Source: Fimbriimonas ginsengisoli
Lineage (GTDB): Bacteria > Armatimonadota > Fimbriimonadia > Fimbriimonadales > Fimbriimonadaceae
DNA length: 44,680 nucleotides
Direction: 5' to 3'
Assembly (NCBI GenBank): GCA_016179045.1
Contig: JACOSL010000027.1
Location: forward strand, 1-44,680
The translations under genes and the position numbers were made by a program. Below are positions 9,431 through 16,475 of this stretch, one piece after another. Under the pieces are notes generated by a model that did not search any database, was not told where the DNA came from, and saw nothing but the letters and a program-made list of their open reading frames with translations. Every line of letters starts with the position of its first letter. Position 1 is the first letter of the stretch.

Positions 9431-10429
9431 CTAGCCATGAAATTGCCCCAGGAAGCGAAGGTCATTTTCAAGGAAGGGCCGCAGGTCCTCGATGCCGTGG
9501 GCGATCATTGGAATCCGCTCGACCCCCAACCCGAATGCGAAGCCCGAATACCGCTTCGTGTCGATGTCGTATCTCTCGAGGATGTTTGGATGGATGAGAC
9601 CCGCCCCGCCAAGTTCCAACCACTGGCCGCCGAAAACCTTTGGCGACGAGATCGCATAGTCGACGCCCGGCTCGACGAACGGGAAGAAATCGGGCCGGAA
9701 GCGCACCTTGACCTCGCCCCCAAACATGGAGCGGGCGAAGTGACCGAGCGTGCCCTTGAGGTCGGCCATGCTGATGCCCTCGTCGACCATGAACGCATCA
9801 ACCTGGTGGAAGGTATGCGAGTGGGTGCGATCCACCGCCTCGTTGCGGAAGCAGCGGCCGATCGCGAACGCGCGTAGCGGAGGCTTGGTCACTTCGAAGA
9901 TCCGGCCTTGCAGCGCGGTGGCCTGTGTTCGCAAGAGGCGCTCGTCATCGATCCAGAACGTGTCCTGCTCGTCCATCGCGGGGTGGTCCTTCGGATAGTT
10001 GAGCGCGTCGAAGTTGTATTTGGCCAGCTCGAGATCGGGCGACTCGTGGTATTGAAAGCCGAGCCCGGAGAGCACCGCCTTGATCTTGTTCATCGCTTGC
10101 TGAAGCACATGCTGTTGGCCGGATCGCCACAGCCTGCCTGGCATCGTGACGTCTATGCGCTCAGCTTCGAACTGGGATGCATGCTCGGTTGACTTAAGTT
10201 CGCGTTCGCGTGACTCGATCAGCGCCTGCAGGCGCTGCTTAATCTCGTTGACTTTCTGACCAAACAGGGGCTTTTCCGCCGCGGGCAAGGCGCCGATCAG
10301 CCGTGTCACTCCGGTGACGAGGCCGCTCTTACCCAGGTACTTGATCTCGAGATCTCGCAACTCGGCCGAGCGAGCGGCAGCACCAATCTCCGCCGTCGCC
10401 TCCGCCTCTAGTTCTTCGACCGTGCGCAT
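9431..10429 (-). CDS. pheS: Phenylalanine--tRNA ligase alpha subunit
   Basis: Catalytic alpha subunit of PheRS, 332 residues, close to the usual length. An N-terminal coiled coil (residues 1-90) precedes the class II core. Motif 2 is visible as FAIGRCFRNEAVDRTHSHTF, then HQVDAFMVDEG; FRPDFFPFVEPG and the motif 3 region GFAFGLGVERIPMIAHGI follow. It is the first gene of a leftward pheS-pheT operon. Its start at 10429 lies 50 bp from the end of the cyclase-like gene, which is oriented the same way. Confidence 0.96.
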   Translation of the reverse strand: MRTVEELEAEATAEIGAAARSAELRDLEIKYLGKSGLVTGVTRLIGALPAAEKPLFGQKVNEIKQRLQALIESRERELKSTEHASQFEAERIDVTMPGRLWRSGQQHVLQQAMNKIKAVLSGLGFQYHESPDLELAKYNFDALNYPKDHPAMDEQDTFWIDDERLLRTQATALQGRIFEVTKPPLRAFAIGRCFRNEAVDRTHSHTFHQVDAFMVDEGISMADLKGTLGHFARSMFGGEVKVRFRPDFFPFVEPGVDYAISSPKVFGGQWLELGGAGLIHPNILERYDIDTKRYSGFAFGLGVERIPMIAHGIEDLRPFLENDLRFLGQFHG

Positions 10430-10479
10430 CGACCACTAAGTAAGGCCGATGCGCGGGCCCGATTGCAACCGGGATGGCC

Positions 10480-11736
10480 TCACGATTGCGCGGGCCTCGG
10501 TAGGGGCGGCGTCGGCGAAGGGGCGAAAGCGGCGATGCTGCGTGGCACCCACGCTACGCCGGAGATCTCGCCGGCTTCAACTCGGGTAGTGCCGATGGAC
10601 GCGGCTCCTCCAGGAAGTTGGGCGGCAGCCTCTTCGCTGACCGCAAGCCCTCCAATCGGGCAAACCTTTTGCAAGTGGGCGGCCACGTCGATCACGTGGG
10701 CGAAGCTGACGCTTGTGAGGTCGCCCGCGTCGGGGGCTACGACCGGTCCTGCATGGACGCCGGCACGCAGCCTGAGAGGCACGCCGATCTTATTGCGCAA
10801 TGCGTTGAACTCGAGGATGCCGACCTGCAGATTGCGGCCGGCGCCGACCGCCTGCTGGGCCGTGTCGAACGCACAAATCATGCCGTCGCCCGCCGTCGAG
10901 TGCACTCGGCCGCCATAGCGCCGCGCGACCATGTCTACGAATCGGTGATATTCGGTGAACGTGAACTCCACGTTGAGAGGGTCTGCATCCCTCTTCATCT
11001 GGGTCGAGCCAACTACGTCCACGCTCAAGAATGCGGCGCTCTGCTCGCCCGAACGAAGCTTGTCCTGAAGCTCGACGAGTTGGGAGAGAAGTTCGCGCCG
11101 CTCATTGCTGCGATCCTTGAGCCCGAGAAGGTGATGGTTGTGGCTGACGACCAGTTGCAAGAGCGACCCTCCAATGAGCCCCAGCCCCGCCCAGAAGATG
11201 ATCCAGTACGAACTGGATTCCGGCAGGTTAAGAATGAAGCCGAATATTTGGTACACGGGGAACCAGCCCGCCCCGAGGATCACTCCCGCGACCGCCGCCG
11301 TGCGCAGGTTGCGGCAGATCGCCAAGTTGTACAGTCCAAACATGGCGAAGCAGATTCCGAGCAGATCCATTAGCGCACCGGGGTTCGGCAAGGTACTTCG
11401 CGCGGCAAGGTAACGCCCAAAAACGCCGAAGGCCTGAGCGAATCCGATGCCAGCCGCCATGAGGCCGCTCGTGACCCATCGCTTTACGCTTGGTTCGAGG
11501 CTGAGAAAGGTTGATCGCCAGCGGTAGAGCACGCCCTTGCGCGCGGTTTCGCCGCGCACCTTGACCGCAACTCGCACCGCCTCTTCTGGGATGCCGGTCG
11601 CTTCCGCGATAGCGAGGATGGCGGAATCGTCGAGCACGCCCCCGTTGGTCGCGCGTAACCGCTCTGCGAGATCGAGGAGTTGTTCGATCCCGTGCTCGGT
11701 GATATAGGCGTCGGCCGTAACTTGCTGGCTGAGCAA
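10480..11736 (-). CDS. Membrane protein with a degenerate class III nucleotide-cyclase domain
   Basis: A 418-residue protein. Residues 1-65 are a soluble region with a ILAIAEATGIPEEAVRVAV helix pair; about four hydrophobic helices span 90-200; a short coiled linker follows; residues 234-400 are a class III adenylate/guanylate cyclase homology domain. The metal-binding aspartates are present (Asp240 in FLSVDVVGST and Asp284 in TAGDG). The purine-selecting Lys position appears to be Ser280, and the transition-state Asn/Arg pair aligns with Asp350 and His354 (VIDVAAHLQ). Catalysis is therefore doubtful; it may sense or bind a nucleotide instead. Confidence 0.78.
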   Translation of the reverse strand: MLSQQVTADAYITEHGIEQLLDLAERLRATNGGVLDDSAILAIAEATGIPEEAVRVAVKVRGETARKGVLYRWRSTFLSLEPSVKRWVTSGLMAAGIGFAQAFGVFGRYLAARSTLPNPGALMDLLGICFAMFGLYNLAICRNLRTAAVAGVILGAGWFPVYQIFGFILNLPESSSYWIIFWAGLGLIGGSLLQLVVSHNHHLLGLKDRSNERRELLSQLVELQDKLRSGEQSAAFLSVDVVGSTQMKRDADPLNVEFTFTEYHRFVDMVARRYGGRVHSTAGDGMICAFDTAQQAVGAGRNLQVGILEFNALRNKIGVPLRLRAGVHAGPVVAPDAGDLTSVSFAHVIDVAAHLQKVCPIGGLAVSEEAAAQLPGGAASIGTTRVEAGEISGVAWVPRSIAAFAPSPTPPLPRPAQS

Positions 11737-11828: not shown

Positions 11829-13046
11829 ATGCCGCCGAGCCGCTACGAGTCCGCGGTCGAAACGTCGAGCGCGGGCCTTGCCCTTGAGTTCGCCCTCTTG
11901 GCGGTGCTCGGCCTGGGGCTAGAAACTGCCTACCGGCCCTCCGCTGCCCTCGCCCATGCGTCGATCGAGGCGATCCAGGCTAGTCCGGTTCTCAGATGGG
12001 TAATGGCATCCCACCACTGGGGCGCCGCCGTGCTGTTCTTGCACGCGGGCGGACAGCTCAGCTTTCAGCTTTGGAGCGGCTCGTATGGGCGCGCCTTTCG
12101 ACGCTCATGGTTCCTTGCACTGGGCATGGCGTTGGCGGGGGCCGGATTTTTGGTCACGGGCAACCTTCTGCCCTTCGATCGCCACGGGGTGCAGACCGCG
12201 ATGATCGAAAGCTCGGTGGCTTCGCGCGTGCCGGTAGCGGGCCACGCCGTAGCCGGATTGATGCGCGGCGGTCCTTTATTTACGGGCGGCGCGCTTCCTG
12301 CCTGGCACGGCTTCCACGCGATCGCATTGCCGCTATTAGGGTTAACGGCGATCGCCCTCTGGCTAGCTGGGAAACCTCGTCCCAGATGGCGTCTGGCGTT
12401 CGTTCCGGTGGTGCTGGTGGCGATGTTGGCGCTGGTCCCCGTGCCGACCGGATCGGCCGCCACGGCGGCCGATCTCGCGACTTATGACGCCCGGCCCGGG
12501 TGGTATGTGTGGCCGATGCATGGGCTGCTCGATGCGTTCTCACGCATCGACCCAAGCCTGGGTTGGGTCGGATCGGCCCTCGCGCCCGCGCTGCTCGTCG
12601 GGTTCTTGGCGAGCCTCGCCTTGTTCTCCAAGTTCTGGACCGTGGCGAGGGTTCGCGGAACAACGATCTGCGCGGCCCTGTTGATTGCGGCGACGACTAT
12701 TCTCTATGGTGGCTCGCCAGCGCCGATCCTCGGAAATCGCGATCCCGTGGGAGGTGGGGCGTCTGAGGCAAGCGGGAAGGTCTCGATCCCGGTCGACGCG
12801 GTGCTTGCCGCTCGGGGCCGCACGTTGTTCAACTCGATGCCTTGCGCGGGGTGCCACGGTAAAAATGCCCGCGGGACCGAAGACGCCCCCAATCTATTCG
12901 ACCCAAGGCGGAGGCACTTCGACCCCGATTGGGTCATGCGCTTCGTGCGGAATCCGCGCTCAATCCGTCCAGGCTCGACGATGCCCGCGTTCCCGAGGCT
13001 GACCGACGACGAACTCCGGGCAATCGCCGAGTTCATTCGCTCTTGA
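11829..13046 (+). CDS. Fused cytochrome b6 / subunit IV / cytochrome c protein
   Basis: A 405-residue membrane protein joining three parts that are usually separate. Residues 15-180 match cytochrome b6: helix B with SHHW (His62), GNLLPFDRHG and LMRGG segments, and helix D with GFHAIALPLL (His163). Residues 185-290 resemble subunit IV, with PGWY at 223-226 where PEWY is expected. Residues 325-405 are a cytochrome c domain with CAGCH at 339-343 and a likely axial Met385 in STMPAF. The second-heme ligand positions hold Gln76 and Trp178 rather than His. ATG 11829 is chosen over an upstream TTG because the added residues look non-coding. No Rieske gene is nearby. It probably moves electrons from quinol to the attached heme c, but not by a normal Q cycle. 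Confidence 0.8.
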   Translation: MPPSRYESAVETSSAGLALEFALLAVLGLGLETAYRPSAALAHASIEAIQASPVLRWVMASHHWGAAVLFLHAGGQLSFQLWSGSYGRAFRRSWFLALGMALAGAGFLVTGNLLPFDRHGVQTAMIESSVASRVPVAGHAVAGLMRGGPLFTGGALPAWHGFHAIALPLLGLTAIALWLAGKPRPRWRLAFVPVVLVAMLALVPVPTGSAATAADLATYDARPGWYVWPMHGLLDAFSRIDPSLGWVGSALAPALLVGFLASLALFSKFWTVARVRGTTICAALLIAATTILYGGSPAPILGNRDPVGGGASEASGKVSIPVDAVLAARGRTLFNSMPCAGCHGKNARGTEDAPNLFDPRRRHFDPDWVMRFVRNPRSIRPGSTMPAFPRLTDDELRAIAEFIRS

Positions 13047-13140
13047 TACGCCCGGAGAGCCCGGCGCCCTAGCCTCCCGGTGATAAACTAGTCGCCCTCC
13101 CGATGCGCCACTCGCCGATCTCACTAGGTTGGGTTCTCAG

Positions 13141-14100
13141 ATGACGATCATTGTCCTCGGCATGCCTCGATCGGGTACTTCGCTGCTCGCCAAGCTCCTT
13201 TTGGACTGCGGGCTCGACTTTGGGACCCTGGCCGAGATGGCCAGGCCACACGAACTGGACAACCCGGACGGATATTGGGAGAACGTCCGCGTCATCAACC
13301 TGAATAAGGCGATCTTAGCGGTGCTCGGAGGGTCCGAGGTGGCCCCGCCCAACGTGAGCCCCGGGTGGAGCAAGGACCCCAAGATGCGCGATCTCAAGCG
13401 GAAGGCGCGCGATTTGGTTGCCGACCTGAGCGGGCCTCCGTACTGGGGATGGAAGGACCCCCGGACGATGCTCACCCTTGAACTCTGGCAGGCCGTATTG
13501 CCCGACGCGCGGTACGCGTTCATCTTCCGAAATCCGTTTGAAGTTGCGCTGTCCTTTGCCAAGCGCAACGACTATCTGAGGCAGCAGGACTTCGTCGGCC
13601 TTCATCACTCGGTGATGCTCTGGCGCCTGTATCACGAGGTGGCGCTGCCGCTGCTGCCCCCGGATAGAACGGTCTTCGTGTCCTATGGCAGGCTCATGAG
13701 CGATTGCGCGGCCGAGCTTCCGAGGATAGTCGAGGCGACCGGCTTGCCCGCTACGGAGGGCCAGATCGTCGCCGCCCGGCAAAGCGTCAAGCCGGAGCTT
13801 TATCGGAACCGCTTTCCCGACTCGCTGATACGCGAATCGCCCGCCGCCGAAGTGGTCCGAGATATATGGGAGCGGCTCGTTAAGCTCGCTGGTGAGCCGG
13901 AAGCGTCGGAAACCAGCGATGGCGAGCAGGTGCGCATGGTGCGCGCCCTCTTTGAAGCGGCCTTCAAGCATTTGGGCTCTGCCGATGACCAGGTCGAGGT
14001 GTGGCGTGATCGGGCATTCCAACTGCACGCCTACGCTAGAAAACTGGAAACCCAGCTTGGCATCCGCCCAAGCGAACAGACCGGCCTCGCGCCGAAGTAG
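13141..14100 (+). CDS. Sulfotransferase family protein (copy 1)
   Basis: A 319-residue protein with the 5'-phosphosulfate-binding loop GMPRSGTSLLAKLL at residues 7-20 and the 3'-phosphate-binding segment FIFRNPFEVALSFAKRNDY. Both are hallmarks of PAPS-dependent sulfotransferases that sulfate sugars, lipids or proteins. A WGWKDPRTM segment between them may contact the acceptor. ATG 13141 directly begins the beta strand TIIVLG leading to the P-loop. A close paralogue follows 138 bp downstream in the same orientation, so this is a tandem duplication. The acceptor is unknown. Confidence 0.85.
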   Translation: MTIIVLGMPRSGTSLLAKLLLDCGLDFGTLAEMARPHELDNPDGYWENVRVINLNKAILAVLGGSEVAPPNVSPGWSKDPKMRDLKRKARDLVADLSGPPYWGWKDPRTMLTLELWQAVLPDARYAFIFRNPFEVALSFAKRNDYLRQQDFVGLHHSVMLWRLYHEVALPLLPPDRTVFVSYGRLMSDCAAELPRIVEATGLPATEGQIVAARQSVKPELYRNRFPDSLIRESPAAEVVRDIWERLVKLAGEPEASETSDGEQVRMVRALFEAAFKHLGSADDQVEVWRDRAFQLHAYARKLETQLGIRPSEQTGLAPK

Positions 14101-14238: not shown

Positions 14239-15201
14239 ATGACGACTATCGTGCTTGGCATGGCCCGATCGGGTACGTCATTGCTCGCCAAGCTGCTCCT
14301 GGACTGTGGGCTCTACTTTGGACCCCTCCACAAGTTCGTCAAGCCGCACGCTGTCGACAACCCAGATGGGTACTGGGAAAAGGTCGGCATCGTCAGGCTG
14401 AATCGGGCGATTCTTGCAACCCTGGGCGGTTCCGATGCGGCCCCTCCTCCGTTGAGCCCAGGGTGGAGCCACGACCCCAGGCTCGAAGACCTAAGACGCA
14501 AGGCTGGCGCTTTGGTTTCGGAGTTCGACGGTGCGCCCTACTGGGGGTGGAAAGACCCGCAAACGATGCTGACGCTCGAACTGTGGCAGCAGGTTGTGCC
14601 CGATGCCCGGTATGCGTTCATCTTCCGAAATCCGCTCGAGGTGGCGATGTCCTTCGTGAGACGCAACGACTACCGGCTGGCGAACGAGGAGTTCTTCGAC
14701 CTCCATCGGGCCCTGATGCTCTGGCGTCACCATCACGACCTGGTGCTCGCGTTGCTGCCTCCCGAGCGGACGGTCTTCGTGTCTTACCGCAAGCTCATGA
14801 GCGATAGCGCATCAGAGCTTCCGAGGATCGTTCAGGCGACGGGTTTGCCCGCGACCGAAGAGCAGGTCGCCGCTGCCAGGCAAAGCGTCAAGCCAGAACT
14901 TTACCGGAATCGGTTTTCGGCATCGCTCGTCCGCGAATTGTCCGCGGCCGAACCGGTCCGAGAGCTCTACGAGCGGCTGACCCATCTGGCAGGCGCGGCC
15001 GATGAATCGAACCCAAACTCGGAGGAGCGGGAGGCGATGGCGCGCATCCTGTTCGAGGAAGCCTACCGAGATCTGAGTGTGGCCGACCGGGAGCTTGCGT
15101 CCTGGCGCACTCGGGCGTTCCAACTGCACGCGTACGCCAAGAGGCTTGAGGCGCAGCTAGGCGTGGGCCCGGGCGAGGGCGGCGGCACTGTGCCGAAGTA
15201 G
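14239..15201 (+). CDS. Sulfotransferase family protein (copy 2)
   Basis: A 320-residue paralogue of the preceding gene, aligning over its whole length. The P-loop is GMARSGTSLLAKLLLDCG, where copy 1 has Pro instead of Ala. The 3'-phosphate segment is FRNPLEVAMSFVRRNDY and the middle WGWKDPQTMLTLELWQ is nearly unchanged. The blocks that differ most are residues 20-35, the SHDPRLEDLRRK region and the C-terminal 70 residues, which could reflect a different acceptor. The shared tail RTRAFQLHAYAKRLEAQLG looks helical and may mediate dimerisation. Confidence 0.85.
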   Translation: MTTIVLGMARSGTSLLAKLLLDCGLYFGPLHKFVKPHAVDNPDGYWEKVGIVRLNRAILATLGGSDAAPPPLSPGWSHDPRLEDLRRKAGALVSEFDGAPYWGWKDPQTMLTLELWQQVVPDARYAFIFRNPLEVAMSFVRRNDYRLANEEFFDLHRALMLWRHHHDLVLALLPPERTVFVSYRKLMSDSASELPRIVQATGLPATEEQVAAARQSVKPELYRNRFSASLVRELSAAEPVRELYERLTHLAGAADESNPNSEEREAMARILFEEAYRDLSVADRELASWRTRAFQLHAYAKRLEAQLGVGPGEGGGTVPK

Positions 15202-15219: not shown

Positions 15220-15984
15220 CTAACCACATCCCGTCGGCGGAGGGGGCGGGGTGTCGGTGGAGCGCGTCAGGATGACCGAGCCGGGCAGAACATTCGTGCC
15301 GCCGCTTAGCGGGCTCGGCAGTGGCGCGGTGCAGGTGGAAATCGTAGGCGCGTAGATCAGGGACAAGTAGCCGTAAGACCGGTAATAGGTGAGCGGCGGG
15401 ATCGAAGCCGAATCAAGATGGAACCGGGTCGCCGTGCCGGGCACCGAGGCAATGAACGAGCCGGAGAAGTCGCTCGTGACCTCGCCCACCTGCGCGCTCA
15501 CGGCGTCATAGAACCAGATGTGGATGTCGGTGATGCCAGTCCCAATGAAGGCGGTCACGACCCGGCCTTGCACCCGTGGCTGGACCGGCGTCACCTTGTA
15601 TTCGGTCGAGTAAAACGTGCCCCCGAAAGTGGCCCCCATCGTGAATTTGGTCGCACCGGCCGAGCCCGCTGCGAACGCTCCGGTCCCCGGAGTGAGCGCC
15701 CCCGAGCCGCCCCCGAGGTCGCTCGTCGCCCAGCCCCCAACGGTTGTGGTGGTCCGGACGCCGCTCTGCGTGTAGTTCACGATCAGGAACTGCACCGAGT
15801 CGCCCGATTGCAGGTTCAGCGCGTCGATCACGGTCGCCGCGTCGGTGGTGGCCGCGCTGCCCGGGAAGATGGCTTCGACTCGGGTGAGAAGGATGGGATC
15901 GCCGACTGCGCCGCCGCCCCCGCCTCCGCCGCACGACGACAGGCAGATCGAGGCGAAAACCAATGGGAGAAAGGTGCGTCGCAT
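15220..15984 (-). CDS. Lipoprotein of unknown function with a Gly-rich anchor
   Basis: A 254-residue exported protein. The chosen ATG 15984 starts a classical lipoprotein signal (MRRTFLPLVFASICLSSC) with lipobox LSSC, followed by a seven-glycine tether. The remainder is Thr/Ser/Gly-rich and beta-strand-like (SGVRTTTTVGGWATSDLGG), ending in a proline tract TPPPPPTGCG. An in-frame start at 16035 would put 17 extra residues before the signal and is less likely. I do not recognise a family; an envelope-surface role is all that can be inferred. Confidence 0.68.
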   Translation of the reverse strand: MRRTFLPLVFASICLSSCGGGGGGGAVGDPILLTRVEAIFPGSAATTDAATVIDALNLQSGDSVQFLIVNYTQSGVRTTTTVGGWATSDLGGGSGALTPGTGAFAAGSAGATKFTMGATFGGTFYSTEYKVTPVQPRVQGRVVTAFIGTGITDIHIWFYDAVSAQVGEVTSDFSGSFIASVPGTATRFHLDSASIPPLTYYRSYGYLSLIYAPTISTCTAPLPSPLSGGTNVLPGSVILTRSTDTPPPPPTGCG

Positions 15985-16034
15985 GGCTGGGCGGCTCTTG
16001 CCGAGTGGGGGTCTGGATGTAAGCCCCGCGATCA

Positions 16035-16475
16035 TTAGACTGATCTACCCTCGGCTTCGGTTCGCCGCAGTCTGGAGGTTCGGAAGGCGTGCGGCAGCAA
16101 ATCCGACAGGCTGAACACCCTGGGGTGGCCCTCATCGGCGGCGAGCGCCACTCCCAGGCTCGACGCATCGGCCGGGGCGAACTCGATTAGGGTCTGCAGG
16201 CACAGGCCGCAAGGCGGCGCGCCGTCTCTTGTGGCAACCGCGAGGGCCGCGATTTCGCGCGAGCCCGCCGCCACCATCCGCGCAACGGCCACCCGTTCCG
16301 CGCATAGGCTAAGGCCGTACGAGGCGTTCTCGACGTTGCAGCCAGTCCACACGCGGCCCTCCGCGTCGAGGATGGCGGCGCCCACCGCGTAGCCGCTGTA
16401 CGGCGCATAGGCCCGCGACCGCGCCTCGCGGGCACGCTCGATCAGATCATTCCAGAGGGCCTGATCGGACTTCAT
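16035..16475 (-). CDS. cdd: Cytidine deaminase
   Basis: A 146-residue zinc enzyme of pyrimidine salvage that converts cytidine or deoxycytidine to uridine forms. The nucleoside-binding segment is PYSGYAVGAAI. The zinc/catalytic motifs are NVENASYGLSLCAERVA (catalytic Glu next to the first Cys) and PPCGLCLQTLIEFA (two further Cys). Length fits the tetrameric homologues. The ATG overlaps the mutS2 stop as ATGA (16472-16475), so the two are translationally coupled. Confidence 0.93.
   Translation of the reverse strand: MKSDQALWNDLIERAREARSRAYAPYSGYAVGAAILDAEGRVWTGCNVENASYGLSLCAERVAVARMVAAGSREIAALAVATRDGAPPCGLCLQTLIEFAPADASSLGVALAADEGHPRVFSLSDLLPHAFRTSRLRRTEAEGRSV

Follow-up and report, generated by a model that had tools for sequence, protein, structure and literature searches.

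The window analysed here, a 44,680-nucleotide stretch of contig JACOSL010000027.1 from Fimbriimonas ginsengisoli (GCA_016179045.1), carries on its forward strand a gene (11829-13046) for a 405-residue protein that joins a cytochrome b and a mono-heme cytochrome c in one piece. Residues 1-297 resemble cytochrome b6 followed by subunit IV. A linker (residues 300-323; 12726-12797, forward strand), with pLDDT below 50 at residues 309-317 of the predicted model, leads to the cytochrome c domain (12798-13043, forward strand), in which the CxxCH motif (339-343) and the axial Met385 were found in all 67 homologues. An electron acceptor of the c/c1/f type is present as this fused domain. The protein scored above the curated cut-off of the cytochrome b superfamily profile PF00033, and the fold agrees, the predicted model being a cytochrome b fold of high confidence (pLDDT 87.9) from which seven membrane helices were read. 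The best NCBIfam match, ExtP b-type cytochrome NF040969, lay far under its cut-off (60.5 bits against 290), and cytochrome b6 PRK03735/NF002990 did not reach its curated cut-off either (54.4 against 325). Across 29 sequences with 28-41% identity to the window protein, 20 positions were invariant.

Homologues were collected by three protein searches and by genome searches covering relatives and members of the same phylum. Twelve named loci came from Armatimonadota assemblies labelled Fimbriimonadaceae, Fimbriimonadales, Fimbriimonadia, Chthonomonas, Chthonomonadaceae or Armatimonadetes, and the remaining homologues from metagenome sources; a scan of viral contigs returned no relative. After removal of fragments and near-copies, the final set held 67 family rows and 64 rows of other cytochromes b. 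Rows above 90% identity were removed, which took the larger family set from 73 to 67 and the smaller tree from 45 to 41, and the other cytochromes b were reduced likewise to 64. Also left out were L021, L022, L028, a ring hydroxylase (L002), the window's own rows (L003, L075), a gene read in two frames (L092), fragments or a duplicate (P0002, P0015, P0019, P0059, P0073), unaligned rows (P0022, P0025, P0026), and repeats or near-copies of genomes already present or a match to the c domain (L032, L071, L072, L074, L078, L079, L084, L090, L093, L096, L050-L061). Rows L099-L110 were obtained afterwards and stand outside the alignment; L007 was kept together with the run-on tail of its reading frame.

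Of the four His ligands that are the rule in Rieske/cytochrome b complexes, the window protein has two. The first ligands of helices B and D to heme b_L/b_p, His62 (12012-12014, forward strand, as are all residues located below) and His163 (12315-12317), were found in 67 of 67 homologues. Gln76 (12054-12056) occupies the site of the second helix-B His, a ligand of b_H/b_n, and His occurs there in 13 of 67. Its helix-D counterpart is replaced by Trp178 (12360-12362), a position at which His was found in none of the 67 and Pro in 23. In the comparison set of other cytochromes b, the second helix-B His was present in 64 of 64 and the second helix-D His in 62 of 64. With the helix-D His absent throughout and the b_L ligands universal, at most one bis-His b heme is therefore left. 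A further b heme with single or unusual ligands is possible, and the helix-B His of the 13 homologues counts in the same way. The remaining site lies on the quinol side, and b_L alone does not span the membrane.

Other sources of a second heme were considered and rejected. Neither His63 nor His72 is conserved, and the partner in helix D is missing; a heme c_n of the b6f kind was set aside because no Cys of the first helix is conserved. Nor is the window gene an isolated degenerate copy, as loss of the b_H site is family-wide. An HxxxH pair at helix-B positions 72 and 76 occurs in 11 of 67 homologues, and the window protein retains the first His of it only.

The initial annotation had read the locus as a single 405-residue protein spanning b6, subunit IV and a CxxCH domain, which profile, fold and alignment bear out. 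Its proposal that the b_n/b_H ligands were lost and those of b_p/b_L kept holds across the family, and an ancestral cytochrome b that oxidised quinol is likewise supported. The search for the same pattern in relatives, which it proposed as a check, bears out conservation of the loss, with the second helix-D His in none of the homologues and the second helix-B His in 13.

On the quinol-oxidation side, the Qo motif reads PGWY (223-226; 12495-12506), with Gly in place of the acidic second residue of PEWY or PDWY. Glu was found at this position in 31 of the 67 homologues and in none of the 36 rows that group with the window protein in the tree. E295, Y147, M154 and Y302 are among the Qo residues modelled around bound quinol in Rhodobacter capsulatus bc1 (PMC10583091); motif alignment places them at 224, 112, 119 and 231, which are Gly, Asn, His and His here. 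Asn112 (12162-12164), assigned by motif to the place of Tyr147, is His in 33 and Asn in 32 homologues, or 65 of 67. His119 (12183-12185), assigned in the same manner to the place of Met154, is His in 39 and Asn in 25 of 67. Eight residues past the Met154 position lies Glu127 (12207-12209), which, together with His231 (12519-12521) at the place of Tyr302, is present in 67 of 67 family members. In the 64 other cytochromes b, position 127 was Gly in 50, and position 231 was Gln in 25, Phe in 20 and Tyr in 15 (60 in sum), with a single His. Position 127 presumably faces the Qo pocket, as Ile146 does in bovine structures.

As the family was defined by Glu127 and His231, the frequency of 67 of 67 for these two residues is circular. 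An independent division of the 131 distinct rows was made by the second helix-D His. This residue was missing from 69 rows, namely the 67 family rows, P0020 and P0103, and 67 of the 69 have both Glu127 and His231. None of the 62 rows with the second helix-D His has both, although single occurrences were found (Glu127 in P0069 and P0072, His231 in L098). These distributions suggest that proton-accepting residues were gained at or near Qo positions as the Qo Glu went, and that the pocket was probably not simply abandoned. P0069 and P0072 are two-heme cytochromes b with Glu at 127 and PLWY in place of PEWY; a shift of Glu may have taken place in another lineage too.

On the quinone-reduction side, the connection between helices D and E is shortened (residues 179-206; 12363-12446), and the FxP...KD-like motif of close canonical relatives was not found in it. 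The stretch from His163 to Trp225 had a median of 67 residues in 46 family rows, compared with 85 in 16 canonical rows. Of these 16 close relatives 12 have the motif, and among the 46 family rows only L091 and P0020 do. In the larger set, the motif was found in 0 of 36 Glu-less family rows and in 25 of 31 Glu-keeping rows, but it matches only 23 of the 64 other cytochromes b, which makes a missing motif a weak test. The form in the Glu-keeping rows is YYPxHMARE or similar. The window's clade would thus appear to be without the quinone-reduction motif and the sister clade to retain a form of it, with the motif seemingly too narrow to serve as a general marker of the site.

The order of the losses was examined on two trees. 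In the careful tree of 62 rows, 16 canonical cytochromes b split from the rest (100/96), with P0020 as sister; there followed a grade of Glu-keeping mono-heme proteins (L017, L091, L014, L009, L015) and then 40 Glu-less rows (100/98). On the larger tree the mono-heme state required one change and the loss of Glu one change. This tree was built quickly and has long branches, L014 and L017 among them; the smaller careful tree gives the same order of events. The second helix-B His occurs in 13 rows nested within the family, with six changes on the tree, and may reflect regain or repeated loss. The tree order suggests that loss of the heme site is older and that the Qo Glu was lost later, once. 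P0020, a protein of 552 residues with PEWY, the helix-B His, Gln for the helix-D His, Glu127, Asn at 231 and two CxxCH motifs, is possibly an earlier intermediate, as judged from its residues. The initial annotation had proposed a coordinated loss of heme and Qo Glu, which does not fit the trees, nor the 31 of 67 mono-heme proteins that still have the Glu. Its suggestion of a passive conduit found no support either, in view of the new family-wide protonatable residues Glu127 and His231 and of the remaining heme, which is on the quinol side and does not cross the membrane.

No bc-type Rieske match and no second cytochrome b were found in the window genome, in which the b-c gene is the single cytochrome b match. 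With the genome at 92.7% completeness, a Rieske gene may have been missed. Its only Rieske-domain match has the CTHRG/CRYHG motif and the length of ring-hydroxylating oxygenases. The bc-type Rieske query also found nothing in G025, G027, G030 and G038, all of which carry the b-c gene, and in total 9 of 25 b-c genomes gave no bc-type Rieske (G000, G025, G027, G030, G038, G039, G089, G167 and G172, the window's own included). A second Rieske match of G039 was classed by its length and by its absence under the bc-type query, and G172, 98% complete, had no Rieske-domain match whatever. By coordinates, 23 of the 25 genomes had no Rieske match near the gene, some of the genes lying close to contig ends. 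Additional small Rieske genes were seen both where the b-c gene is present and where it is absent; two of the small proteins (L134, L142; G162, G232) have CPCHNGA replacing the usual CPCHG.

The other two of the 25 genomes, G180 and G221, belong to the sister clade, and each of them has a Rieske frame, with CTHAGC...CPCH, that runs into the start of the b-c gene. At L111 (around 10892-11077, reverse strand) the Rieske frame ends at 10892 and the b-c gene occupies 9483-10895; at L099 the corresponding positions are 1040-1501 and 1498-2904. This Rieske/cytochrome b pair is predicted to contain one b heme. The mono-heme proteins L009, L014, L015 and L017 (G013, G039, G027 and G025) keep PEWY and have no adjoining Rieske match. 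Three of these genomes, G039, G027 and G025, also gave no bc-type Rieske, G013 being the exception. At the one canonical locus read in detail, the cytochrome b of G018 (L048) is clustered with genes for Rieske, iron-sulfur/cytochrome c and molybdopterin oxidoreductase proteins.

Elsewhere in the window genome, one cluster holds alternative complex III (ACIII)-like genes (NrfD, an iron-sulfur/molybdopterin-type subunit and a frame with five CxxCH motifs) together with genes for a caa3-type oxidase. NrfD was matched in 39 of 41 genomes and COX1 in 40 of 41; G027, which carries the b-c gene and is 96% complete in 480 contigs, matched neither. A full-length one-piece copy of the b-c gene was found in 15 of the 41 genomes, the window's included, and not in the other 26; the full-length match of G004 is a fusion of the canonical kind, with all four His. 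On this distribution the b-c gene appears to be auxiliary. The quinones of cultured F. ginsengisoli are menaquinones, MK-11 and MK-10 (PMC4072686).

We consider it somewhat probable that the 405-residue protein is a Rieske-free menaquinol:cytochrome c oxidoreductase that operates with a single b_L heme and without a Q-cycle. Quinol oxidation by the b-c protein would have continued, we infer, and its role would presumably be auxiliary to the chain of alternative complex III and caa3. Menaquinol would bind in a rebuilt Qo pocket, where Glu127 and His231, with His119, would deprotonate the quinol in place of the lost PEWY Glu and of the Rieske His. On the outer side, the tethered heme c would receive both electrons, by way of heme b_L and/or directly; it would move in after the manner of the Rieske head of bc1 and hand them on to the caa3 oxidase. 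Because there would be no b_H, no electron would be recycled, and energy conservation would therefore be limited to proton release on the outer side and to the oxidase. The enzyme would serve as an auxiliary route, or one for overflow, alongside the ACIII-like genes of the same genome. The b_H knockout of R. capsulatus is reportedly a point mutant of bc1 in which the Rieske protein and the Qo Glu are present. In this laboratory mutant reduction of heme b_L was still seen (PMC4330944), and a protein with b_L only can therefore be redox active. Several points count against the oxidoreductase reading: neither the Qo Glu nor the Qo Tyr is left, a one-heme site without bifurcation must cope with semiquinone, ACIII would already fill this role, and 26 of the 41 genomes have no full-length copy. 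As to its origin, we suggest tentatively, and with some doubt, a stepwise end of bifurcation, in which b_H and the Q-cycle were lost first with Rieske present, then the Rieske protein, then the Qo Glu. The end product would be a single-gene enzyme, with the tethered cytochrome c replacing the Rieske head and the Glu/His set in the old Qo pocket replacing its chemistry.

The protein could instead be a degenerate Rieske/cytochrome b enzyme, in which a Rieske protein encoded elsewhere is the first acceptor and b_L takes the second electron and returns it to heme c. The sister clade, with its Qo Glu and overlapping Rieske gene, is in keeping with this, as are the further small Rieske proteins of several b-c genomes. 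However, nine of 25 b-c genomes, the window's among them, gave no bc-type Rieske, the small Rieske genes occur regardless of the b-c gene, and 23 of 25 genomes have none near it; we regard this explanation as rather unlikely. A different kind of new function would be a metal or substrate site built from His119, His231 and Glu127 in the former Qo pocket and acting on something other than quinol. Potential metal-binding residues were indeed gained at pocket positions as the Qo Glu was lost, but Asn replaces His119 in 25 of the 67 homologues and no precedent was met in the literature searched, which makes such a site improbable.

A role in redox sensing or electron relay, rather than as a respiratory enzyme, seemed equally improbable; the b heme would then read the state of the quinone pool and signal, perhaps, to a cyclase. 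The divergent neighbour of the b-c gene (10480-11736, reverse strand), noted for context, encodes a membrane protein with a class III nucleotidyl cyclase domain, and a relative is likewise divergent to the b-c gene in 11 of the 28 other genomes examined, a count that may be low as several upstream flanks were short (475 to 1650 bases) and that includes G196, which did not match the cyclase motif. Cyclase relatives were matched in 32 of 41 genomes, however, some across the cyclase domain only, and many of these genomes are without the b-c gene. An obligate partnership was rejected on this ground; the cyclase looks like a core gene and a chance neighbour, and the attached heme c domain, with all its ligands, also speaks against a sensor. 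Least credible of all is a decaying relic without function. The patchy distribution of the full-length copy (15 of 41 genomes) would agree with decay, as would the G128 gene in two frames, but the frames are open, 20 positions are invariant in 29 sequences, and the c-heme and b_L ligands are universal. The G128 gene (L092) is either broken or the product of an assembly error.

Our preferred reading, the Rieske-free oxidoreductase, sets the protein beside several known systems. With cytochrome b6 plus subunit IV of b6f and with the cytochrome b of bc1 (PF00033), it has in common the fold of residues 1-297, the b_L/b_p ligands and the Qo WY. It differs from them in its one b heme site, its lack of a quinone-reduction motif and of the Qo Glu, the fused heme c, the absence of any Rieske partner among the genes found, and the seven membrane helices of the predicted model. 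Fusions of cytochrome b and cytochrome c are known in Bradyrhizobium and Planctomycetes (PMC4013037). The fusions L018, L094, L095 and L097 likewise hold b and c in one chain, but keep all four b-heme His and PEWY. The sister mono-heme clade (L091/G180, L099/G221 and most of P0028-P0054) shares the loss of b_H ligands, Glu127, His231 and the fused mono-heme c; it differs in keeping the Qo Glu (A/S/PEWY) and, in both genomes read, in the Rieske gene at the start. Alternative complex III, an unrelated NrfD/multiheme complex, would be expected to carry out the same overall reaction, passing electrons from quinol to cytochrome c with neither Rieske nor Q-cycle. The b_H knockout of R. capsulatus resembles the window protein in having b_L without b_H, but is an artificial laboratory mutant.

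In the literature, searched by title and abstract opening, no description of such a protein was found. Bifurcation and short-circuit at Qo, and the roles of the Qo Glu, the Rieske protein and b_H, have been argued largely from laboratory mutants. The family resembles a natural series of intermediate forms: two b hemes; one with Rieske and Glu; one with Glu and no Rieske found; and one with neither. As a test object for quinol oxidation, a one-gene, two-heme protein of about 405 residues would be far simpler than the bc1 dimer. If the reading were confirmed, it would mean that the Q-cycle can be given up where the main flux passes through a different quinol oxidase.

The possibility that the gene belongs to a respiratory operon was considered and rejected. 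The window neighbours are PheST, sulfotransferases and MutS2, and those in the scanned relatives are topoisomerase, histidine kinase, LytR-CpsA-Psr, PilZ and other unrelated genes. The two sulfotransferase-like genes (13129-14100 and 14239-15201, forward strand) lie between the b-c gene and a gene for a glycine-rich hypothetical protein (15220-16035), relatives of which were found near the b-c gene in several other genomes.
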